In this document: one piece after another, positions 5,234 through 27,498 of the stretch
Layout of the letters: every line of letters starts with the position of its first letter
Numbering within the stretch: position 1 is the first letter of the stretch
Source of the DNA: Candidatus Gastranaerophilales bacterium
GTDB lineage: Bacteria; Cyanobacteriota; Vampirovibrionia; Gastranaerophilales; Gastranaerophilaceae
Length of the DNA: 44,571 nt
Direction of reading: 5' to 3'
NCBI GenBank assembly: GCA_944323995.1
Contig: CALUUN010000010.1
Location: 1-44,571 of the forward strand
Position numbers and translations under genes: made by a program
Notes under the pieces: generated by a model
Database searches by the model: none
The model's input: the letters and a program-made list of their open reading frames with translations, nothing else
What the model was told of the DNA's origin: nothing

Positions 5234-6394
5234 CTAATGTACGCATACTGCCCAATATGGACCATAGGTGAACCTATCCCCCTGATAGAAATAAGCCTGA
5301 AATGGACCGTATGCAAATTCATAAACGTCAGCTCTTTCTCCTTCAACTTCATCACTTGTGTAAGCATAAGCTAGTACGTTTCCTCTAAATACATAGCCAA
5401 ATTCACTGGCTTTTTCAATATTTCTATACAACGACCAAGAAGTATCATCACGATCTGCCGATATCGGCGTTTCGTAGATATAGCTCGCTATTTTAGCTAA
5501 TTCTTCTCTGTTAGTTAATCTGCCGCCCAGACTTCTGCAGGTATTTGCAGCCACTGCAACGGGATCATTACCCGCAAAACACTCTTTTAAATATCCTTCG
5601 CTTATAAGATTATTGCAATCTTCTTCTGTTATAGGACCGGAATCTGGAGTAAAGGCCTCTGCCAGAATACACATACCTTCAAATTCTTTAAAACAACTGA
5701 GACCCAGTTTAGAAACGTTGATTGAACGTAAATCCTTTGAACTGGTATTCGGTAATTTATATGCTGACGTATCATATAAAATGGCCAGACAATTAAGAGT
5801 ATCAACTTGGTTAGAATAAGGATCTTGATAACAATTGGGATTATAAGCTATCAAACCGGTTGTCCCGTTTGCAAATTGCACCCCTAAAATTTCCGTATCC
5901 CATTCTTCCAATCCAAAATTTTTTGCCGTTTTTAAAATGGTTGTATCAATTTCCTCATTTTCACTGCCCCAGTATACTTTATCTTCAAAACAGGATGTTA
6001 TATCGTCGTTTTTACATATCTTTGTTATTTTTATATGTTTGGATAATTCATCAACAAACGCTTCTGTTGTTGTATAGCCTGCCAAAGTCCCCTGAACATT
6101 CATCACTTTCAATGATTCTTCAAGTTTTCTTTGAAATACTTGTGACGCAGTGTCCCATGCTTCTTGCTGAAAATTCTGAATTAGGGTCGGAATTGTCAGT
6201 GCTGCAACAATGCCGATTATTGCCAAGGTAATTAAAACCTCCGCAAGTGTGAAGGCGGCATTTCTTTTAAAGTCGTTAAGTCGATAAGACGCTAGGACGT
6301 TAAGTCCTTTACATTCGCTTCGCTCAATAAATTTGTCATTACGAGCAGACGTAGTCTGCGTAGTAATCGCATTGCCGTCAGATTTTACCGACAC
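5234..6394 (-). CDS. Pilin-like adhesin gene 1, poly-G switched
   Basis: A prepilin-like protein; the frame is open to the GTG at 6394 and beyond, up to the poly-G tract. After a long leader comes AAFTLAEVLITLAIIGIVAALTIPTL, the type III prepilin signal: processing would be before Phe, Glu is at position +5, and the leader residue is Ala rather than the usual Gly. A secreted Cys-containing middle domain follows. The C-terminus has CRSLGGRLTNREELA and ends YWAVCVH, resembling C-type-lectin/FGE folds. Unlike genes 2 and 3, the 3' end is AT-rich with no NNC pattern, so it does not look retro-diversified. The leader encodes translated dispersed repeat. The likely true start is the ATG at 6519, out of frame by one base with the present nine-G tract. 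Confidence 0.85.
   Translation of the reverse strand: MSVKSDGNAITTQTTSARNDKFIERSECKGLNVLASYRLNDFKRNAAFTLAEVLITLAIIGIVAALTIPTLIQNFQQEAWDTASQVFQRKLEESLKVMNVQGTLAGYTTTEAFVDELSKHIKITKICKNDDITSCFEDKVYWGSENEEIDTTILKTAKNFGLEEWDTEILGVQFANGTTGLIAYNPNCYQDPYSNQVDTLNCLAILYDTSAYKLPNTSSKDLRSINVSKLGLSCFKEFEGMCILAEAFTPDSGPITEEDCNNLISEGYLKECFAGNDPVAVAANTCRSLGGRLTNREELAKIASYIYETPISADRDDTSWSLYRNIEKASEFGYVFRGNVLAYAYTSDEVEGERADVYEFAYGPFQAYFYQGDRFTYGPYWAVCVH
6335..6380. repeat. Dispersed repeat fragment inside the pilin 1 leader
   Basis: On the plus strand this starts GTCATTACGAGCAGACG and contains CGTAGTAATCGCATTGCCG. The same core occurs, in either orientation, at 13976-14000, 27337-27398 and 44391-44416. It is read in frame as NAITT...RND in the three poly-G pilins. 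Confidence 0.7.
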
Positions 6395-7849: not shown

Positions 7850-7876
7850 AAAAATCCCTCAAGAGGGATTTTTTTA
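7850..7876. terminator. Bidirectional terminator between convergent genes
   Basis: AAAATCCCTC, an AA loop, GAGGGATTTT, then further T; on the other strand the upstream A-run gives the T tail. It serves the acyltransferase (+) and the MGxAASQAR gene (-). Confidence 0.85.
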
Positions 7877-9583
7877 AGCATCATATCGTTTAAACGATTT
7901 TTCTATATTTTTGGAAATTAATGACTTAATTGTATCGTATTCGGTTGTGAGTGAAGAAATTTCAGTATCCAGATTTTTCATCTTAAGGTCAAGTATTTCT
8001 TCTTTCTGGTTAAGTTTTTGTTTTTCGGTATTGTATTTTGCTTCAGCTTTTGCTATCGCGTCTTCGTCTGTTACTTCTTTTATGTAAGTATTTGTTGCAT
8101 AATTACCCTGATAATAATATCCGTCATCCGTACAGGTCGATAAGAAGTATTTGCCTGTCTTGAGCATTTCCTGAAGATAATCATTGTCAGTTACATTGTT
8201 ATTTTCAACCCAGCCGTTTGTACAAATCTGGTTGAATATTGCGTCAAAGAATCCCGACTGCAATGCCTGATCCGTATTTACACCGGTATTTACAACAACA
8301 TTAAATTTATAATCACTGTCAAGCGTAATAAGGTTACTGTCTTCAACTTTTCTGTTGTTGGTTGTATCAGATACGGTATATTCACTCTTACCGATACCTT
8401 CCATCGCCTGTATAAAGTATGTCAAATATGCGTAGGCAATGTTTGATACGTCGACAGAAACACCGTCTTTTTTATATTTTTTCTTATTACCCATACCCAA
8501 AAATCCGTTTCTGTCGTTATCGTATGTAGTAATACCTATATATTCGGCAGTGTTATATGAATCTTCAGTTCCTCTGAATATTTTACCGAACCATGTTCTG
8601 TGGTGGTTCTGGTCGTTCATCGCGCTGATAACACCTTTCCATCCGCTCTTTTCCCAGGTTTTACCTGAGAATTGCAATGCAAGGTTGTCTGACTGCAATA
8701 ATTTTCTTGTCTGTGCTTCGGCTGATGCGATTGCGGAACTTACACCCGGGTCGCCTGCAACATTCAACAACGACGCAAATTCACTGAACATCCAATCCCA
8801 TATCGGCGAATTTGCAATAGCGTTTGCAGTATTAAGACGTCCGTCATTTTCATCATCAACTTTACACAAAATTTGATAATGCGGGTTCTGGCCGTTTGCA
8901 TCCGATAAAATCTGATCAAGCGTCAGTGTCTGATTACCGATATCACCGTTAGATTTTGCGCCGGTACGAATTTGTACATCTTCTGCCGCAAGTTCAGCTT
9001 TCAAGGCTTCTCTGTCATACATATAAGATGTTGTTTCAAAATCTCCCGAAGTATAATAATCTATCAATTCAGCCAGAGTCATTTCTTCAACTTTTGTGGT
9101 CACAAGATCTGTTGTGCCCATACCCATTGACTGAGCGTATTCAATACCGACATAAGTTGCAGCCTGCTCATTACTGATAATACCGCTTTTTGCAAGCCCT
9201 TCAATAAATTTGTTACGCATTGTGCTTGACGGCAGGCAGCCCAAACCTTCCTGCGGAATACCCGCTGCACGGGCTGCAGTTGCATAAGCACTGCTCAAGA
9301 CAGTTTTGCCTGATGTGTCGGTTATTAATGTCGGCAGATATCCGTTCATCTGCGACGGTGTCATCAATAAACCGTAGCTTAATGGTGTTGTGGTATCTCC
9401 CGTTCCGTAAAAATCGTACACTAATTTTGTTTGATCTAATGAATTCTGATATTCGGTTGATAAATCTGTCAAATCACGAGAGAGCGCTATTTTTTGATGT
9501 GAATAGCGCATAGACTGATATTCACAGTCCGCTTTGCGTGCCGTGATGGTTAATAGTCTGGCTTGTGATGCTGCTAAACCCAT
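7874..9583 (-). CDS. MGxAASQAR-family protein, long version
   Basis: A 569-residue protein related to that at 193-1251. It begins MGLAASQARLLTITARK and ends in a coiled-coil stretch (KLNQKEEILDLKMKNLDTEISSLT...) closing with ISKNIEKSFKRYDA. The middle ~450 residues are Asn/Thr/Tyr-rich, with no signal peptide or TM helix, consistent with a secreted or filament-associated protein. AAAGGA precedes the ATG at 9583. It is divergent from the export operon starting at 9783, about 200 bases away, which makes it a candidate substrate or capping/adaptor protein for that apparatus; this is inference from position and layout. Function otherwise unknown. Confidence 0.78.
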   Translation of the reverse strand: MGLAASQARLLTITARKADCEYQSMRYSHQKIALSRDLTDLSTEYQNSLDQTKLVYDFYGTGDTTTPLSYGLLMTPSQMNGYLPTLITDTSGKTVLSSAYATAARAAGIPQEGLGCLPSSTMRNKFIEGLAKSGIISNEQAATYVGIEYAQSMGMGTTDLVTTKVEEMTLAELIDYYTSGDFETTSYMYDREALKAELAAEDVQIRTGAKSNGDIGNQTLTLDQILSDANGQNPHYQILCKVDDENDGRLNTANAIANSPIWDWMFSEFASLLNVAGDPGVSSAIASAEAQTRKLLQSDNLALQFSGKTWEKSGWKGVISAMNDQNHHRTWFGKIFRGTEDSYNTAEYIGITTYDNDRNGFLGMGNKKKYKKDGVSVDVSNIAYAYLTYFIQAMEGIGKSEYTVSDTTNNRKVEDSNLITLDSDYKFNVVVNTGVNTDQALQSGFFDAIFNQICTNGWVENNNVTDNDYLQEMLKTGKYFLSTCTDDGYYYQGNYATNTYIKEVTDEDAIAKAEAKYNTEKQKLNQKEEILDLKMKNLDTEISSLTTEYDTIKSLISKNIEKSFKRYDA

Positions 9584-9782: not shown

Positions 9783-10952
9783 ATGAGTACTCAGACCGTA
9801 AATCCGATAGATTCAAAAGAATTATATGCTGAATATAACTGGTACAGGAACACTTTTCCGCCGGTAGTTCAAAAGTGCTGCGACGAATTCTTTTTGCCCG
9901 GATTTAAATTTTCAATGATAGGGATAAGCAAAAATGTTAATCCTTTGATGGATAAAGATTCTTATTTTGTAACAAAAATCCGCATTGACAAACAGTACGA
10001 TATGTTTTTCAGGAGTTCGGAAAAAGCGATTTCGTTAATTTTGGACAGGGTGCTCGGAAAACCGAACAGATCTTTCAACCTTAACAGAATGACCGATCTT
10101 GAAGCTAAAATTATTACATCATTTAACGATTATATGTTCAATGTTGCATCAGCTCTTCTTAACCCGCCCCCGCCGAATGAATTAAGAAGAACAAACTTTG
10201 ACGTAATCCATCTGACTTTTGTCATAAGAGATGTTGACGAACCAAGGTTCGGAAAATTTATAGTATCACTGCCCGCAGCCCTTTTAAAGCCTGACGCTGT
10301 TGTTTCAAAAGGGCCGAAATTTGATAACACATCTTTTAAGACAAGTACGCTTGACGTGAATATTAAAATCGGCAGCACAAGATTTACGATGATGGATTTA
10401 AAAAATCTTGACGTTGAAGACATAGTAGTTTTTGACAACAGCAACACAAAACACATGACACTTGTCATAGATGACTACGTAAAAGATATAAAACTCAATC
10501 CGAACCTCGGATTAATAACACCGGTAGAAAATAACGGAGGAGATAATATGGGAGCCAACAATTTATGGGACAGCATCGAGGTAGAAATGACCGCTGAATT
10601 CGATGCGGTGAAAATAACTCTCGGAGACCTTAAAAGCATAGAAGACGGCATGGTGGTTGACTTGACGTCAATTTACGATAATAAAGTAACTTTAAAAGTT
10701 GAAGATAAAATAATAGCCCGCGGTGAACTTGTCATAGTAAATGACAGATACGGGGTTAAGATAAACGAAGTTACGGCACAGAAAAAAGAAGCCGCCGCGC
10801 AGCCTGAGGAATTAGCGGATGACTTTGAAGCAGATGAGGCTGAAGTTAATGAAACACCGGCCGGCGGAGAAGAAGAAGCACCGGCAGGCAATGACCAGCA
10901 GGATGAAGAATTTGACTACAGCGACTTTGAACTTGACGATGAAGATATTTAA
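9783..10952 (+). CDS. FliM/FliN/SctQ-type C-ring protein with two SPOA domains
   Basis: A 389-residue protein of the flagellar switch/type III C-ring family. An N-terminal domain (residues 1-170) with FliM-like features is followed by two SPOA domains, about 185-255 (LDVNIKIGSTRFTMMDLKNLDVEDIVV) and 268-335 (IEVEMTAEFDAVKITLGDLKSIEDGMVV), and an acidic tail of ~50 residues rich in Glu/Asp/Pro. Having both SPOA domains in one chain resembles SctQ/YscQ or a FliM-FliN fusion rather than classical FliN. It would form the cytoplasmic ring under the export gate, and in flagella it binds phospho-CheY. It is first gene of the operon through fliR. GGCAGGGA precedes the ATG. Confidence 0.88.
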   Translation: MSTQTVNPIDSKELYAEYNWYRNTFPPVVQKCCDEFFLPGFKFSMIGISKNVNPLMDKDSYFVTKIRIDKQYDMFFRSSEKAISLILDRVLGKPNRSFNLNRMTDLEAKIITSFNDYMFNVASALLNPPPPNELRRTNFDVIHLTFVIRDVDEPRFGKFIVSLPAALLKPDAVVSKGPKFDNTSFKTSTLDVNIKIGSTRFTMMDLKNLDVEDIVVFDNSNTKHMTLVIDDYVKDIKLNPNLGLITPVENNGGDNMGANNLWDSIEVEMTAEFDAVKITLGDLKSIEDGMVVDLTSIYDNKVTLKVEDKIIARGELVIVNDRYGVKINEVTAQKKEAAAQPEELADDFEADEAEVNETPAGGEEEAPAGNDQQDEEFDYSDFELDDEDI

Positions 10953-10961
10953 GGAGAGCTT

Positions 10962-11327
10962 ATGGGAGGATATATCGCAAATTTTACTGTTTATACAATG
11001 GCAATGCTCGGGCTTATATGCTTTGCGCTTTTTGTCTATAAGAAATTTTTAAGCGGAAATTCTTTCAAAAATAAATCAAATTTTTTGGGAGTAGAAGAAT
11101 GCATAAGTCTTGCGCCGAGGAAAAATTTGTATGTAGTACGTGCCGGCAGCGAAAAATTTCTTATCGCTTCCGACGTTGACAAAACAACGCTTATTTCAAA
11201 ACTCGGGACTTCGCAAAGAACCGAACGCAGGGCGGAAGATATTGACGATTTGCCGGTAATAGTTGATTTTCCCGTCAAAGAAAAACCGGTTATAAAAGAA
11301 ATGCTTAAAAAAATTAATGATATGTAA
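10962..11327 (+). CDS. fliO: Flagellar biosynthesis protein FliO
   Basis: A 121-residue protein with one N-terminal TM helix (residues 7-28, FTVYTMAMLGLICFALFVY) and a basic cytoplasmic domain. The run LGVEECISLAPRKNLYVVRAG...FLIASD matches the FliO consensus (sLgp+k.l.lV.vg...ll.g). FliO assists assembly of the FliP ring in the export gate. It lies ten bases after the C-ring gene and directly before fliP, the usual order. GGAG lies before the ATG. Confidence 0.85.
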   Translation: MGGYIANFTVYTMAMLGLICFALFVYKKFLSGNSFKNKSNFLGVEECISLAPRKNLYVVRAGSEKFLIASDVDKTTLISKLGTSQRTERRAEDIDDLPVIVDFPVKEKPVIKEMLKKINDM

Positions 11328-11336
11328 GGATATAAA

Positions 11337-11978
11337 ATGGAAACAATTATAAAAGATATGAACCCTGTATTGCAGATGCTTATAGTAATGACGGTATTTT
11401 CGCTTATACCGTTTGTATTCTGCTGTATGACAAGTTTTTTGAGGTTTGTAATAGTATTTTCAATGCTTAAAACAGCACTCGGAACCCAGCAGGTTCCGCC
11501 CTCAATCGTAATTATCGGACTTGCCATGATTCTTACGTTTTACACAATGGGAACAACATTTACCAAAATGTATGAACTCGGCTCAATTCCGTACCAGCAA
11601 AACAAAAACATGATTGAGGCGATAAACGAGGGTTCAAAACCTTTAAAAGAATTTATGATGAAACAAACACGCGAATCCGATCTGGCGTTTTTTGTTGAAT
11701 TTTCGCAAAAAGAACCTCCGAAATCACCGGAAGAAATAACAATCTGGCAGATTGCGCCGGCGTTTATTATAAGCGAATTGAAAACAGCCTTTGAAATCGG
11801 GTTTATAATATTTGTACCGTTTATCGTACTGGATCTGGTAGTTGCGAACATACTTCTTGCACTCGGTATGTTCATGTTATCACCGACGATCATATCCCTG
11901 CCGTTTAAACTGTTGATATTTATTGCGGTTGACGGCTGGTCGCTCATTGTACAGGGGCTTGTTACAAGTTACAATTAA
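11337..11978 (+). CDS. fliP: Export gate protein FliP
   Basis: A 213-residue FliP/SctR protein. Hallmarks are TSFLRFVIVFSMLKTALGTQQVPPS near the N-terminus, a periplasmic middle with FMMKQTRESDLAFF, and the C-terminal helices ELKTAFEIGFIIFVPFIVLDLVVANILLALGM and SLPFKLLIFIAVDGWSLI. About four TM segments. There is no cleavable signal peptide, unlike FliP of enterobacteria. It forms the pentameric core of the flagellar/type III export gate with FliQ and FliR. It is followed eleven bases later by fliQ. Confidence 0.96.
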   Translation: METIIKDMNPVLQMLIVMTVFSLIPFVFCCMTSFLRFVIVFSMLKTALGTQQVPPSIVIIGLAMILTFYTMGTTFTKMYELGSIPYQQNKNMIEAINEGSKPLKEFMMKQTRESDLAFFVEFSQKEPPKSPEEITIWQIAPAFIISELKTAFEIGFIIFVPFIVLDLVVANILLALGMFMLSPTIISLPFKLLIFIAVDGWSLIVQGLVTSYN

Positions 11979-11989
11979 GGATAGAGATT

Positions 11990-12478
11990 ATGGAACCTTT
12001 AATAGAATATTTAGCAAGAGGATTTATGGTAATGCTGGCGATATCAATGCCATGCGTACTTGTTGCGGCGGGAATCGGGCTTGTGGTAGGTATATTGCAG
12101 GCGGTAACACAGGTTCAGGAACAAACAATTGCGGCGGCGCCGAAAATTCTTGCGGTATTTCTTGTAATAATAATCGGCGGAGTCGGGTTTATAAGAATTC
12201 TGACAAACCTTTTCACCGACGGCATGGCGCTTGCATTTAACGTTGTTCCGAAAAATGAAACCTATGTATTGTCGTCGGATTATTATAAATATACGACGCC
12301 GTTTGAAGGCGAAATGAAAGACAGGTTCAAAAATCAGCCTGACATTAATGAAATTATGAAAAATCCGGGCAAAGTTCCGTTTATAGATAACCAGCAGAGG
12401 ATGAAATACCTGCCGAGTCAGAGAACTCCGATGCCGCGCCCTGATTTTGTGGAAACAAATACCATACTCGGAAGATAA
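11990..12478 (+). CDS. fliQ: Export gate protein FliQ with C-terminal extension
   Basis: Residues 1-90 are a typical FliQ/SctS hairpin: GFMVMLAISMPCVLVAAGIGLVVGILQAVTQVQEQTIAAAPKILAVFLVIIIGGVGF. FliQ is normally about 90 residues; this one has 162. The extra ~70 residues are hydrophilic and Pro/Tyr-rich (YYKYTTPFEGEMKDRF...RTPMPRPDF), with no TM segment, and probably lie in the cytoplasm or periplasm near the gate. I see no frameshift or fusion scar. The stop is followed within a few bases by the next gene, so it is translated as part of the operon. Confidence 0.93.
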   Translation: MEPLIEYLARGFMVMLAISMPCVLVAAGIGLVVGILQAVTQVQEQTIAAAPKILAVFLVIIIGGVGFIRILTNLFTDGMALAFNVVPKNETYVLSSDYYKYTTPFEGEMKDRFKNQPDINEIMKNPGKVPFIDNQQRMKYLPSQRTPMPRPDFVETNTILGR

Positions 12479-12481
12479 TCA

Positions 12482-12871
12482 ATGAAAAAACTGTTTTTGA
12501 CAGCCTTAATACTTATGAATATATTGCCGGCGGCAGCTTTTGAAAATTACATGATAATTTCAAATACGCCGGTCAAATCTGTTGCGGTTAAAGACCCTGA
12601 AATTGCAGATGTAATCCCTGTTTTTACAATTGATAATCAGAAAAAAATTCTTCTGTTAAAATCAAAGAAAAAAGGTTCGACTAAAATTTTTGTAAAATAC
12701 ACAACAGAGGAAAAAGTTCTTGAAGTCAAGGTTACTGCAAAATCCACCAAAATAAAACCTGTTGACGGGTTTGAATATTTTGTTATGGACGAACCGCCCG
12801 CCGAAATTGAAATTCCGGCTCCGCCCGCAAATCCTGTTATTCCTCCGCCGGTTATAAAGGACGGTGAATAA
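12482..12871 (+). CDS. Exported pilus/secretin N-domain protein in the fli operon
   Basis: A 129-residue protein with a signal peptide (MKKLFLTALILMNILPAAAF). The mature part, SNTPVKSVAVKDPEIADVIPVFTIDNQKKILLLKSKKKGSTKIFVK, matches the small N-terminal domain found in CpaC/RcpA-type secretins and pilus formation proteins (T2SS-T3SS_pil_N as I know it). A Pro-rich tail (EIEIPAPPANPVIPPP) follows. It lacks any secretin barrel, so it is a stand-alone periplasmic module. It sits between fliQ and fliR, overlapping fliR by one base, which suggests a role in the same apparatus, perhaps in crossing the outer membrane or peptidoglycan. Confidence 0.8.
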   Translation: MKKLFLTALILMNILPAAAFENYMIISNTPVKSVAVKDPEIADVIPVFTIDNQKKILLLKSKKKGSTKIFVKYTTEEKVLEVKVTAKSTKIKPVDGFEYFVMDEPPAEIEIPAPPANPVIPPPVIKDGE

Positions 12872-13650
12872 TGGAACTTATCATTGAAGAACTGATGAAG
12901 ATGTTTCCGGCGCTTAATACAATGCTTGCGGCGGGTATTATGGTATTTTCGCGGCTGATGGGATTCATAAGATTTGCGCCCGTATTTAATAGAAAAGAAA
13001 TTCCCGGAATGGTGAAACTGGCACTTTGTTTACTTTTAACAATAATTATAACCCCGTTTGTAAAAACTGACAGTCTTTTTGTAATGGAATCTTTTACGCT
13101 GTCGATTATTTTGAATATTGTAACCGGAGCCTTGATAGGATATATGGCGCAGTTAATTTTGATGGCGGTTGAAGCCGGAGCGGATATGATTAATATGCAA
13201 ATGGGTTTGTCCTCCGCAATGGTATTGGAGCCGACAACATCAAGCCAGGTTTCTATTTTAAGTAAAATAATGGCGCTTTTCGGGCTTTTAATATTTATAA
13301 ACCTCGGCGGGGTTTACTGGCTGATACGGGCTTTGATGCGCAGTTTTGAAATATTTCCGATATATGCAACAAGTATTCCGCTTGAACAGCTTGTGAATAT
13401 GAATTATCTTATAACAATGTCCTCAAACGTTTTGTTTATGGGGCTGCAGATAGCGGCACCCGTTCTTCTTGCAACGCTCGGGCAGGATATAATTCTCGGT
13501 GTAATTTCAAAAACAGCCCCGCAGGTAAACGTTTTTCAATTGAGCTTTCTGTTTAAACCGGTTCTTGGTGCTGCAATAATGGTATGGATTCTGCCTATGC
13601 TTTTGAATATAATCGGAGAATATTTTTTGTCCTATACAAATATATTTTAA
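12871..13650 (+). CDS. fliR: Export gate protein FliR
   Basis: A 259-residue FliR/SctT protein. It has about six TM helices and family marks: MVFSRLMGFIRFAPVFNRKEIPGMVKLALCLLLT near the start, then MGLSSAMVLEPTTSSQVSILSKIMALFGLLIFINLGG, and the C-terminal GAAIMVWILPMLLNIIGEYF. It completes the FliP-FliQ-FliR gate. The start codon overlaps the previous stop (TAATG). flhB and flhA, often next, are not here; the operon ends and a pilin-like gene with its own promoter follows. Confidence 0.94.
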   Translation: MELIIEELMKMFPALNTMLAAGIMVFSRLMGFIRFAPVFNRKEIPGMVKLALCLLLTIIITPFVKTDSLFVMESFTLSIILNIVTGALIGYMAQLILMAVEAGADMINMQMGLSSAMVLEPTTSSQVSILSKIMALFGLLIFINLGGVYWLIRALMRSFEIFPIYATSIPLEQLVNMNYLITMSSNVLFMGLQIAAPVLLATLGQDIILGVISKTAPQVNVFQLSFLFKPVLGAAIMVWILPMLLNIIGEYFLSYTNIF

Positions 13651-13688
13651 ATTATTTAGAATTAACCGGCTGCAGAAATGTAAACAAA

Positions 13689-13717
13689 TTGACATTTAAA
13701 ATCAAAAAATCTATAAT
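13689..13717 (+). promoter_or_regulatory. Consensus sigma70 promoter of pilin 2
   Basis: TTGACA (13689-13694), exactly 17 bases, TATAAT (13712-13717): a perfect consensus match. It points at the ATG at 13751, with GGAG at 13738-13741, which argues that the ATG, not the GTG at 13785, is the real start of pilin 2. Confidence 0.9.
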
Positions 13718-13750
13718 AAAACCAGGATAGATAAAATGGAGAAAAAACAA

Positions 13751-13804
13751 ATGGTCAAAAACGCAGACTACATCATTGCTCTAAGTGGGGGGGGGGGGCT
13801 GTAA
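13751..13804 (+). other. Poly-G leader reading frame of pilin 2 (OFF)
   Basis: The ATG has a Shine-Dalgarno nine bases upstream and a consensus promoter. It encodes MVKNADYIIALSGGGG and ends at TAA just after the 12-G tract. With 11 G the sequence after the tract reads GGC TGT AAA TCA, the frame that continues through the whole pilin. The present length is therefore OFF. Confidence 0.8.
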
Positions 13805-15122
13805 ATCAGCTTCACGTACTGAACACAGCAGTTTAATAACCCCAAAAGTTAAATCAGCTTTCACTTTAGCAGAAGTGCCTGAGGCACGACAACATATCGG
13901 ACATTGGTCTAATTCTTACAGTCATTGCGAGGAGCGGAGCGACGTCGCAATCGCAAGGTTGGTAAATTGCAACGACAATGCGATTACTACGTCGAATGCT
14001 GTGCATTCTCCTCGTAATGACAAGGGATACAACCCTCTACCACTGGGAGAGGGTGGCACGCAGTGCCGGGTGAGGGTCAAAAAGGCAGCCTTCACACTTG
14101 CGGAAGTATTGATAACACTGGCGATTATCGGCATTGTTGCAGCACTGACAATCCCGACACTTGTACAGAACTATCAAACAAAAGCATGGGATACTGCATC
14201 AGAAGTATTTCAAAGAAAACTTGAAGAATCGTTAAAGGTTATGAATGTTCAAGGAACCTTAGCAGGCTATACAACAACGGAAGCGTTTGTTGATGAATTA
14301 TCTAAACATATTAAGATAACAAGAATATGCGATAACGATGATATTACAACATGCTTTGCAGATAAAGTTACATGGGGAACAGAGAATGAAGAAGTAGAGA
14401 TGGCGGATGTAAAAAGAGCATCACACTTCGGACAGGATAGCTGGGGAACAAATACTGTAGGAGTACAGTTTGCAAACGGTGTTAACGGAGTAATAGCATA
14501 TAATCCAACAGAGACTTGTAAACAGGATCCATATTCAAATCAAATAACAGGAACAAGCTGCTTGGCAATATTATATGACGTAGACGGATTTAAGAATCCA
14601 AATACCCAGAATAAAGATTTAAGAAGTATAAACGTATCAAGTTTAGGCGGAAGTTCATGTTCATTTGAAGTAGGCGGAATATGTTTCGGAACACTTTTCC
14701 AACCGACAGCATTAACACTTGCAGAATGCGAAGCACAAAAAGGTGAACTTGAAATAAATGAATGTTACTACGATGCTGATTACTGGGCAGGTGCAGTAAA
14801 AGCATGTGCAGATCAAGGAAAGCGATTACCGACCCTCGCAGAACTAAACACATTAGCAAATGATTTGTATAACACCACAGTAAGCGGCGGAGACGGAGAA
14901 GTAGTATATGCAACCATGAACACAGACAAAGCAAGTTCTTACGGCATCCCTCTCTATGACTTTGGTGACGGAATTAGCGGCTTCGGCCTGTGGTCCGGTC
15001 AGGAGACGGGCGCTCGCCGCGCGTACGCACGCGAATTCTACTCCGTGAACACGGGCTGGTACTCGAACGCTAACAGAGACTACTCCGGCCCGAGCTTATG
15101 GGCGGTTTGCGTAGGTGAATAA
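13785..15122 (+). CDS. Pilin-like adhesin gene 2, poly-G switched, DGR-type variable end
   Basis: The open frame runs from the GTG at 13785; the likely start is the ATG at 13751 when the G tract has 11 bases. The leader (residues 1-102) contains a first SAFTLAEV at residues 26-33 that runs into other sequence, then translated dispersed repeat (CEERSDVAIA...), then the working signal KKAAFTLAEVLITLAIIGIVAAL. The secreted body is nearly identical in parts to gene 3. The C-terminal C-lectin/FGE-like domain has ACADQGKRLPTLAELNTLA, LWSGQETGA and LWAVCVGE. The last ~47 codons (14979-15122) are GC-rich, unlike the body, and differ from gene 3 almost only at codon positions 1-2. It probably displays a diversified ligand-binding tip on a pilus. 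Confidence 0.88.
   Translation: MGGGGCKSASRTEHSSLITPKVKSAFTLAEVPEARQHIGHWSNSYSHCEERSDVAIARLVNCNDNAITTSNAVHSPRNDKGYNPLPLGEGGTQCRVRVKKAAFTLAEVLITLAIIGIVAALTIPTLVQNYQTKAWDTASEVFQRKLEESLKVMNVQGTLAGYTTTEAFVDELSKHIKITRICDNDDITTCFADKVTWGTENEEVEMADVKRASHFGQDSWGTNTVGVQFANGVNGVIAYNPTETCKQDPYSNQITGTSCLAILYDVDGFKNPNTQNKDLRSINVSSLGGSSCSFEVGGICFGTLFQPTALTLAECEAQKGELEINECYYDADYWAGAVKACADQGKRLPTLAELNTLANDLYNTTVSGGDGEVVYATMNTDKASSYGIPLYDFGDGISGFGLWSGQETGARRAYAREFYSVNTGWYSNANRDYSGPSLWAVCVGE
13787..13798 (+). repeat. Poly-G tract (12 G) in the pilin 2 leader
   Basis: Twelve consecutive G following CTAAGT. A change to 11 (or 8 or 14) G would join the ATG at 13751 to the pilin frame. It is the longest homopolymer of G or C in the window. 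Confidence 0.9.
13921..14021. repeat. Palindrome-ended dispersed repeat inside the pilin 2 leader
   Basis: A 101-base element bounded by GTCATTGCGAGGAG and CTCCTCGTAATGAC (inverted ends with one mismatch). Parts of it occur at 6335-6380, 27337-27398 and 44391-44416. It is read through in frame, giving CEERSDVAIA and NDNAITTSNAVHSPRND. It looks like a small inverted-repeat (MITE/REP-like) element rather than native pilin sequence. Confidence 0.7.
14979..15122 (+). other. DGR-type variable region of pilin 2
   Basis: Aligned codon by codon with 26384-26239 (minus), from CTG TGG TCC GGT to the stop, 17 sense codons differ. In 14 of them the third base is unchanged, and 11 are NNC/NNC pairs such as CGC/TAC, TAC/GGC, GGC/TCC and AGC/ATC. 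Intervening codons are identical at DNA level. This is what independent mutagenesis of AAC codons copied from one template repeat would leave. A stem-loop follows at 15128-15146. Confidence 0.82.
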
Positions 15123-19828: not shown

Positions 19829-20860
19829 CTAATTCACCACATACTTTCCGTCTTTTTGTATCACATCGCCGGCATCAAGTTTTGAAGGTTTGTTCGTCGA
19901 AGATACAGCATTGACTATTCCGGCCAGAGATGAAAGTGCCGCAACCGCTATCATGGCTTTGCCTGCATGTTTTGCAAACCCTTTTGCACCTTTTGGCCCG
20001 TGTATCAACTCTTTTGCGCTTTCTATCGCGCTGTCTTTAAATATTTTCAAAGAATGCAGGAATTTTTCGCCTTTCCAGAATTTTAACGTTGCAACGTTAA
20101 AATAGTTTTCCCACGGAGATTGAAAAGCGTAAGCAACGCCTGCTGCCGCCCACAGATATGAAGAAAGCGTTTTTGCCATATCAGTTTTTACGGCAATCTC
20201 TTTTATCAAAGGTTTTACCTCCTGATCGGAATCTTTCAGGTTATCGCCGAGTCCGATTTTTTTGGCAACCTTGTCAAAATATTCGTTTCTTGTTTCCCCG
20301 TGCGCCTCGGATTTATAGAAAAGATCCCAGCGCGGAAATTCTTTGCTTTCGTATGCTTTATGATATTCTATGCTCATAATGTCGGTATCATAAACATCAT
20401 CGGGCAATTCGTAATTAACTTTTGCGTAAGGGACTTCGGTATCAACACCGGTAAGCCATTTTACCGGCTGGGTTACGAAAGATTTGGTAAAGGATTTCAA
20501 TATCCCGTAAAATAAAACTCCCAAAGCCATCTTTCTTCCTATAGCACCGGCTTTTGTTCTTGCAAACGGCGCAAAGTGTTTGTTTGCGGAATTAAACACC
20601 GACATAAGCATTAAACTGCCCACTATATAAGGCACTGTTCCCATAGTCAAAAATTCATAAAAATTGGCGTTTCTGTCGCCTTTCAAACCTTTTGCGGCAT
20701 ACAAAGTGAGCGCATTGGTGAATTTTTCATAACCTATGCGGGTACGGGTTATAAAATTATTTTTCAACAGCGTATCTTTATCGTACGGCAGCTTCTTTTT
20801 TTCAGAATTGCCGCTGGTAAAATTTATTTTTCTATCGATATTATTTACCGGTAAAATCAT
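19829..20860 (-). CDS. Membrane protein, unknown function
   Basis: A 343-residue protein beginning MILPVNN. The ATG at 20860 is chosen because GGAG lies five bases upstream; the open frame continues to 20938 without a good start signal. Hydrophobic segments include FLTMGTVPYIVGSLMLMSVF, GAIGRKMALGVLFYGILKSF, and near the end AGKAMIAVAALSSLAGIVNA. It contains an Asp/Glu-rich loop with YELPDDVYDTD. It heads the three-gene operon with the 834-residue protein and the GH13 enzyme. Family not recognised; the KMALGVLFYGI segment shows no catalytic motif. Confidence 0.75.
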   Translation of the reverse strand: MILPVNNIDRKINFTSGNSEKKKLPYDKDTLLKNNFITRTRIGYEKFTNALTLYAAKGLKGDRNANFYEFLTMGTVPYIVGSLMLMSVFNSANKHFAPFARTKAGAIGRKMALGVLFYGILKSFTKSFVTQPVKWLTGVDTEVPYAKVNYELPDDVYDTDIMSIEYHKAYESKEFPRWDLFYKSEAHGETRNEYFDKVAKKIGLGDNLKDSDQEVKPLIKEIAVKTDMAKTLSSYLWAAAGVAYAFQSPWENYFNVATLKFWKGEKFLHSLKIFKDSAIESAKELIHGPKGAKGFAKHAGKAMIAVAALSSLAGIVNAVSSTNKPSKLDAGDVIQKDGKYVVN

Positions 20861-20953
20861 TTTTTCTCCGCACACACTATGTTGTTTATAAGTCATGTCA
20901 AAATATTTTTTGCCATGACTAAAATTCTTATTTAACATTTTTTTACAATATTT

Positions 20954-26238: not shown

Positions 26239-26384
26239 CTATTCACCTACGCAAACCGCCCATAAGATCGGGCCGGAGCCGCCTCTGCCGCCATTCGAGC
26301 CCCAGGACGTGCCCATGGATTCGAATACGCGTTGGTGCGCGTAGCTAGCGTCCGTCTCCTGACCGGACCACAGGTAAAAGCCGC
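26239..26384 (-). other. DGR-type variable region of pilin 3
   Basis: Homologous to 14979-15122. The constant codons are identical at DNA level, while the variable ones (GAC, AGC, TAC, CAC, GGC, TCC, ATC) all fit mutated AAC codons of a shared template. Codon use here is GC-rich against an AT-rich gene body. The stop itself differs (TAG against TAA), again at a template A. Confidence 0.82.
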
Positions 26385-27498
26385 CATAAGTAGTTACATT
26401 GTCAACCGGTAAGCCATATTGTGACATTTTGTTCATGTCTAATGTCTGGACACCGACAGGTTCTCCGTCTCCACCTGACATGTCTTTACCGTACAAATCA
26501 TTCGCTAATGCTAATAGTTCACTGTCATTTGGTAATCGCTTTCCTTGGTCTGCGCATGTTTTCATTGCGCCGCCCCAATAGTCATTATCTCCTGTCATGC
26601 AGTTCTGTATACCGTATTTTCCTTTGTTTGCATTACAATCTGCTGCTGTTAATGCTGTCGGTTGAAATGGTGTTCCAAAACATATTCCGCCTACCTCAAA
26701 TGAACATGAACTTCCACCTAAACTTGATACGTTTATACTTCTTAAATCTTTATTCTGGGTATTCGGATTCTTAAATCCGTCTACGTCATACAATATTGCT
26801 AAGCAGCTTGTTCCTGTTATTTGATTACTAAACTGATTTTGTACGCACTCGGGGTTATATGCTAATACTGCATTTACACCGTTTGCAAACTGTACTCCTA
26901 CAGTATTTGTTCCCCAGCTATCCTGTCCGAAGTGTGATGCTCTTTTTACATCCGCCATCTCTACTTCTTCATTCTCTGTTCCCCAGGTAACTTTATCCGC
27001 AAAACATGTTGTAATATCATCGTTATCACATATTCTTGTTATCTTAATATGTTTAGAAAGTTCATTAACAAATGCTTCCGTTGTTGTATAGCCTGCTAAG
27101 GTTCCTTGAACATTCATAACCTTTAACGATTCTTCAAGTTTTCTTTGGAATACTTCCGATGCTGTATCCCATGCTCTTGATTGGAAGTTCTGCACTAACG
27201 TCGGGATTGTCAGTGCCGCGACTATTCCGATTATTGCAAGAGTGATTAAAACTTCCGCTAAAGTAAAGGCGGCCTTTTTGCGCTTACTGTCATATTTTAT
27301 CGGTTTTGCGATTGAGACGCTCCCTTTTACAGTATTGTCATTACGAGGAGAATGCGCAGCATTCGACGTAGTAATCGCATTATCGTTGCAATTTACCGAG
27401 TCTGCAAATGCACTCTCTGCGGTGCTTTTGCTTATCGCTTTACTCCTAAATACCCCGAAACCCGCACGGTGAGAGCTTAAAGAAGTACCCCCCCCCAT
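26239..27498 (-). CDS. Pilin-like adhesin gene 3, poly-G switched, DGR-type variable end
   Basis: The in-frame ATG at 27498 sits in the G tract and has no Shine-Dalgarno; the likely start is the ATG at 27524 when the tract has ten G. Leader of ~75 residues with translated repeat (NCNDNAITTSNAAHSPRND), then KKAAFTLAEVLITLAIIGIVAALTIPTL. The body from MNVQGTLAGYTTTEAFV to NKDLRSINVSSLGGSSCSFEV is nearly identical to pilin 2, pointing to recent duplication or gene conversion. The C-terminal domain has TCADQGKRLPNDSELLALA, LWSGQETDAS and LWAVCVGE; the variable codons give SYAHQRVFESMGTSWGSNGGRGGSGP. Expected on the cell surface as a binding pilin. Confidence 0.88.
   Translation of the reverse strand: MGGGTSLSSHRAGFGVFRSKAISKSTAESAFADSVNCNDNAITTSNAAHSPRNDNTVKGSVSIAKPIKYDSKRKKAAFTLAEVLITLAIIGIVAALTIPTLVQNFQSRAWDTASEVFQRKLEESLKVMNVQGTLAGYTTTEAFVNELSKHIKITRICDNDDITTCFADKVTWGTENEEVEMADVKRASHFGQDSWGTNTVGVQFANGVNAVLAYNPECVQNQFSNQITGTSCLAILYDVDGFKNPNTQNKDLRSINVSSLGGSSCSFEVGGICFGTPFQPTALTAADCNANKGKYGIQNCMTGDNDYWGGAMKTCADQGKRLPNDSELLALANDLYGKDMSGGDGEPVGVQTLDMNKMSQYGLPVDNVTTYGGFYLWSGQETDASYAHQRVFESMGTSWGSNGGRGGSGPILWAVCVGE
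27337..27398. repeat. Dispersed repeat fragment inside the pilin 3 leader
   Basis: Starts GTCATTACGAGGAG and contains ATTCGACGTAGTAATCGCATT; about 60 bases shared in inverse orientation with 13960-14021 in pilin 2. Read in frame on the minus strand as part of the leader. Confidence 0.75.

Follow-up and report, generated by a model that had tools for sequence, protein, structure and literature searches.

The window analysed here is contig C10 (44,571 nucleotides) of a 1.75-Mb, 99.9% complete genome of Candidatus Gastranaerophilales, a group of gut bacteria related to the cyanobacteria but non-photosynthetic. An operon at positions 9783–13650 contains the genes fliMN-fliO-fliP-long fliQ-PF13629 gene-fliR, all on the plus strand and separated by short gaps or overlaps. 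It probably represents one of the loci that encode a flagellar-type type III secretion system (T3SS), here termed class B, which would occur throughout the order beside but independently of true flagella and which probably exports the proteins of a family termed X.

Genes of the operon

The first gene (9783–10952) encodes a FliMN-like C-ring protein of 389 residues with an SctQ-like architecture, in which two stretches over threshold match the Pfam model FliMN_C (77.4 bits); the first SPOA domain is the weaker of the two, since it reaches 22.7 bits when scored alone, under the cut-off of 23.8. Matches to FliMN at E ≤ 0.001 are present in 57 of the 59 genomes of the comparison set, which includes the genome under study, and all except one of these have the class B protein. 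FliO (10962–11327; 121 residues) matches its Pfam model at 24.4 bits (cut-off 22) and TIGR03500 under the cut-off. The export gate proteins FliP (11337–11978; 213 residues) and FliR (12871–13650; 259 residues) are recognised by Pfam at 235 bits and, as Bac_export_1, 175 bits, respectively; FliP also exceeds the cut-off of TIGR01103 (234 bits), and FliR scores 150.7 bits with TIGR01400 versus 111 with the SctT model. FliQ (11990–12478; Pfam Bac_export_3/FliQ, 66.8 bits) has a C-terminal extension of about 70 residues and thereby reaches 162 residues, as compared with 88 in the flagellar operon of the relative G045 and 89 in Escherichia coli. This tail is kept in 15/15 aligned class B FliQs, and FliQ measures 146–189 residues in 27/27 class B operons. 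Between fliQ and fliR lies the gene for a 129-residue protein (12482–12871) containing a PF13629 N-domain (24.7 bits; cut-off 23) and a hydrophobic N-terminal segment resembling a signal peptide as judged by eye, and its stop overlaps the start of fliR. The original prediction, made from the letters of the window, had described two SPOA domains in one chain, about 70 extra residues in FliQ, a stand-alone N-domain protein between fliQ and fliR, and a window free of flhA, flhB, fliI and flagellin, all of which is borne out. The order fliMN-O-P-Q-R is kept in 27/27 loci, in one of which fliR falls beyond the contig end.

The remaining components and two classes of FlhA

A genome-wide search, as the original prediction had proposed, located flhA, flhB and fliI on other contigs: a full FlhA is encoded at C4:10401–12377 within the operon fliE-fliF-(333-residue protein)-fliH-flhA (FliE, 64 bits), FlhB on contig C22 and FliI on contig C7. 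The flagellar export core FlhA, FlhB, FliI and FliOPQR is complete in this genome, with the class B genes scattered over contigs, and flagellar models give FlhA, FliP and FliR higher scores than Sct models do. Flagellin (PF00669) has no match in this genome, while 29 of the 59 genomes are positive and controls scored in 4 of 14. Flg_bb_rod (PF00460) has two matches, versus 5–9 in most flagellated relatives, no search specific for FlgE having been made. A complete ordinary flagellar set, which would have spoken against the original prediction, is therefore not what the genome holds, as flagellin is missing and only the two Flg_bb_rod genes are present (no search having been aimed at stators, L and P rings or a diverged hook).

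The full-length FlhA sequences of the 59 genomes form two classes (counted by hand from tables). Class A (E about 1e-260 to PF00771) is present in 26/29 flagellin-positive genomes, the three without a full copy being G014, G042 and G051, and in 0/30 flagellin-negative ones. Class B (E 1e-200 to 1e-220) is present in 54/59 genomes regardless of flagellin, including 29/29 flagellin-negative genomes of the order; the five genomes lacking it are G058, which belongs to another order, and G019, G039, G049 and G053, which are at most 88% complete. Identity to the FlhA of the studied genome is 70–100% in class B (n = 91 distinct sequences), 36–39% in class A (n = 25) and 37% in E. coli, the two classes being about 36% identical to each other, while mean identity to E. 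coli FlhA is 42.5% for class A versus 35.9% for class B. In the ten genomes that carry both classes, B–B identity exceeds A–A identity in 45/45 pairs; class B FlhA is thus better conserved than its flagellar counterpart, so that class B is not a flagellar copy in decay. In G045, a flagellar set fliP-fliQ(88 residues)-fliR-flhB-flhA stands side by side with a class B operon. Of the two interpretations offered by the original prediction, the distinct export machine is supported, as flagellin is missing, the FlhA class is separate from that of flagellated relatives, and the system occurs next to true flagella as well as in genomes negative for flagellin; the other, an outer-membrane adaptor added to a flagellum, is not the main explanation.

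Of the class B flhA loci, 22 were read (contig ends cut some of them), and eight contain the single run flgF-flgG-flgB-flgC-SLT transglycosylase-fliE-fliF-G'-fliH-flhA (SLT named by Pfam; G', the gene in the position of fliG), one of these with small open reading frames between fliF and G' and another with two G' genes. In eight of the 22 loci fliI adjoins flhA, and the congener G002 has a rod cluster of FlgF-like, FlgG-like, FlgB and FlgC proteins. By sequence, class B comprises a FliPQR-FlhB-FlhA gate, FliO, FliH, FliI, FliF, FliE, the two-SPOA C-ring protein and an all-helical fliG-position protein, to which the complete operons of relatives add FlgB/C/F/G rod-type proteins and a lytic transglycosylase. 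Such a set would build an inner-membrane base and a rod crossing the periplasm, without a rotating hook-filament, and the transglycosylase may open the wall.

The fliG-position protein may be a FliG without its torque domain. Its model is all-helical (mean predicted local distance difference test score, pLDDT, 86), and in 7/50 rows returned by VIA-align the C-terminal part aligns either to FliG residues 1–187 or to the middle domain of FliG, at Z 5.2–7.0, under the threshold for helical folds; for some of these rows, entry title and range served to identify the chain as FliG. Among 21 sequences of this protein, FliG_M matches one (E 0.0021) and FliG_C (Pfam) matches none; hhalign against E. 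coli FliG gives 0.5%, and Foldseek against the PDB returned no match to the model at E ≤ 0.001.

Several further observations concern FlhA and its neighbours. One in-frame stop per gene interrupts class B FlhA in several genomes related to one another: G231, G247, G256, G260, G265 and G266 (TAA) and G129 and G209 (TAG). G014, the sole congener with a flagellin-family match, has additional rod genes and an additional FlhA fragment as well; with 4% contamination in this assembly, foreign contigs are a possible source. A stand-alone cytoplasmic FlhA domain protein of about 490 residues with no membrane part (L064:11818–13296, minus strand) is encoded on C7 of the studied genome, a short cytoplasmic-only FlhA match is present in 55/59 genomes (hand count), and this domain is perhaps a docking platform for chaperones or substrates. 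Immediately behind class B flhB, the studied genome and G041 encode a sigma-70 region-4 protein, possibly a dedicated regulator (L071:4432–5094; L073:8184–8849).

Family X as the candidate substrate

Two proteins encoded on the minus strand of the window, one at 193–1251 (352 residues counted from MGMAASQAR) and one at 7874–9583 (569 residues, divergent from fliMN), resemble at their ends two proteins encoded at the flhA locus (419 and 108 residues) and typify family X, the candidate substrates of class B. Among 14 diverse members, the invariant columns occur only in residues 1–52 and 287–349 of 352, and those that are nearly invariant likewise fall within the first 52 or last 66 residues, so that conserved ends enclose a variable middle. 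The family is present in 58/59 genomes with 3–29 matching stretches each (21 in the studied genome, several genes giving two). X genes adjoin both class B loci of this genome, and one is divergent from fliMN in 12/12 loci of this genome or its congeners with room upstream, three more congener loci ending too soon. In other genera, X lies within 1.5 kb of fliMN in 0/15 loci, one of which has only 153 bases upstream. Among the 22 flhA loci, a cluster X-270-90-108 (sizes in residues) is found upstream of fliE in five, the 90-residue gene being unlabelled in one.

The AlphaFold (AF2) model of the 352-residue protein has confident helices at 2–46 (45 residues) and 277–351 (75 residues) around a low-confidence, beta-rich middle, and most resembles the structures of flagellin, FlgL and FliD. 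Flagellar filament, cap or junction complexes occupy all of the ten best VIA-align rows (Z 8.3–10.2, 98–136 residues, root-mean-square deviation 2.5–6.1), aligned over both ends, and entry titles identify 25/50 rows as flagellar axial proteins, with FlgL, FlgK, FlgG and hook included. The trait typical of flagellin and axial proteins, terminal helices packed around a variable domain, is present in this model, the predicted template modelling score (pTM) of which is low.

The distribution of X was followed in a class-wide draw of 289 genomes. It is present in 193/193 genomes of the order and, outside the order, in 18/18 genomes of families f9, f14 and f15, the FlhA of which gives 17 hits at 1e-271 to 1e-303 and a fragmentary one (G131, 1e-151); it is present in 0/24 genomes of f10–f12, which have FlhA hits at 1e-123 to 1e-205, and in 0/54 genomes without FlhA. 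Judging from the FlhA scores, f9, f14 and f15 would have class B.

We infer that X is exported by class B, in which case the proteins would pass through FlhAB-FliPQR and serve as strain-variable filament or tip (axial-like) subunits, or be released. Several results weigh against this and against the wider interpretation. The X model has a mean pLDDT of 71.8 and a pTM of 0.44; unrelated helical chains reach Z 8.3, and long helices can give Z near 8–10; Foldseek against the PDB returned no match to the model at E ≤ 0.001. At the sequence level, 0/14 members match the Pfam flagellin models, hhalign against five class A flagellins gives a probability of 0.2%, and a sequence search with X returned no flagellar PDB match. 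The likeness to flagellin is therefore a match of architecture and not proof of descent. The distribution of X follows phylogeny, so that co-occurrence alone is no proof of function, and four genomes of the order (G136, G213, G238 and G297) carry X without a full class B FlhA hit. The fliG-position protein, finally, is no more than a possible FliG.

The alternative that survives best is a non-motile secretion system with substrates other than X, which would then consist of cytoplasmic or surface proteins linked to the system by common lineage only. It fits the phylogenetic pattern, the lack of a sequence link to axial proteins and the separation of X from fliMN in other genera, but is rather unlikely in view of the adjacency to fliMN within the genus, the cluster upstream of fliE, the conserved ends with a variable middle together with the structural resemblance, and the split of 18/18 versus 0/24 outside the order. 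Still less probable is a complete, highly diverged motile flagellum with X as its filament and with hook and stators unrecognised. The resemblance of the X model to flagellin and hook-associated proteins and the presence of rod proteins and a C-ring accord with it, stators not having been searched for, but flagellated relatives possess, apart from class B, an ordinary flagellum served by its own FlhA and flagellin, the studied genome has only two Flg_bb_rod genes where FlgE would be expected, and FliG_C is not found by Pfam in the 21 fliG-position proteins.

Secretion signals were also sought at the N-termini of 1252 locus proteins. An N-terminal pattern [VI]xFx[GSA] had been seen by eye in several proteins without a signal peptide. 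Of the two motifs tested, one shows a weak N-terminal excess (30 starts in residues 0–79 versus 10 in 100–199, with no class-B-negative control) and the other no clear excess, so that the pattern is no more than a lead. N-terminal stretches that end in such motifs as INFTS or ITFQS, weakly enriched at most and with no evident signal peptide, occur in the proteins at window positions 19829–20938 (minus strand), L064:9657–11768 and L071:6589–7962.

Relation to known secretion systems

A protein of 114–176 residues is encoded between fliQ and fliR in 15/26 class B operons, and the PF13629 protein is found in 18/59 genomes by protein search. When 16 intervening proteins, that of the window included, were scanned (E ≤ 0.01), three matched PF13629 and five CagX/VirB9. 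Since the gene is missing between fliQ and fliR in 11/26 operons, the N-domain protein is an accessory, and it may act as an optional periplasmic stabiliser of the gate or rod. A dedicated secretin was looked for in the studied genome and not found; its single secretin adjoins genes named pilB- and pilC-like by eye from sequence. That the PF13629 protein links the system to this secretin, making it an injectisome docked to the outer membrane, is suggested by the family name (N domain of pilus formation proteins) and by the CagX/VirB9 matches, but is very improbable given the operons that lack the gene and the position of the only secretin in a pilB/pilC cluster; the adaptor of the original prediction loses weight on the same two grounds.

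Class B shares with the flagellar basal body FliE, FliF, FliH, FliI, FlhA, FlhB, FliO-R and rod proteins that are flagellar by family models, and differs from it in the absence of flagellin, the fused two-SPOA C-ring chain, the long FliQ, the unrecognised protein in the fliG position, the transglycosylase in the operon of relatives, the PF13629 accessory and its coexistence with a true flagellum in other species. With the non-flagellar T3SS (NF-T3SS), or injectisome, it shares the export core, the SctQ-like two-SPOA chain and the lack of flagellin; it differs in having FliE, FlgB, FlgC and FliO, in having no secretin of its own, and in FlhA, FliP and FliR being better matched by flagellar than by Sct models. 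By the NF-T3SS criteria of Abby and Rocha, class B has no secretin of its own and does not lack flgB, flgC and fliE. The 'Myxo' NF-T3SS of Myxococcales, as presented by Abby and Rocha (2012), likewise has a conserved export core without secretin or motility and was once annotated as relics, but has neither FlgBC nor FliE, which class B has. The basal bodies of Buchnera are also non-motile and flagellin-less, with a secretion role proposed in PMC8109811; Buchnera, however, keeps the hook genes flgD and flgE, and its one flagellum is reduced, whereas class B is a second system beside the flagellum in other species.

The flagellar tree of Di Rienzi et al. (2013) was built from 13 genes common to four genomes, and their gene list contains two flhA genes and a one-gene numbering gap between fliQ and fliR, which would fit class B. 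Loss of flagella was inferred by Soo et al. (2014), and the fliI tree of the 2015 Vampirovibrio paper is monophyletic. Class B genes are best read as having been taken earlier for leftover flagellar genes. That they are decaying leftovers after a loss of motility, as Soo et al. would have it and as the missing flagellin and scattered genes of the studied genome might suggest, is strongly disfavoured and scarcely credible, as class B accompanies class A in flagellated relatives, the two FlhAs are so dissimilar, B is the more conserved in every pair, and all flagellin-negative genomes of the order retain it.

According to Abby and Rocha (2012), fliE, flgB and flgC are markers of the flagellum, and NF-T3SSs are monophyletic, from which they conclude that exaptation to NF-T3SS occurred once, while allowing for several exaptations of flagellar T3SSs. 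Class B may represent a second conversion, ancient and independent of the first, in which the rod proteins were kept, and for this reason tools relying on fliE, flgB and flgC would file it as a flagellum. More tentatively, and with rather less confidence than in the system itself, class B may be a flagellar basal body that was independently turned, throughout the order, into an organelle of the cell surface without motility; this third type, next to flagellum and injectisome, would assemble or release a strain-variable repertoire of proteins with a flagellin fold. No description of the class B system was found in the literature by title or abstract start (open-licence PMC text). Once it is recognised, the 'incomplete flagella' of Melainabacteria would be read differently, and these common, poorly understood gut bacteria would gain a candidate secretion route together with a candidate secretome in family X.

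Type IV pilin-like genes in several copies, almost identical at their N-termini, flank both class B loci of the studied genome (window 5234–6394, 13785–15122 and 26239–27498; L063:68–1150 and 12739–13830), and a 21-base sequence near the gene start is common to both L063 copies. Downstream of class B fliI in this genome lies an apparently prophage-like gene block (L070:9674–17000), as judged from translations only.

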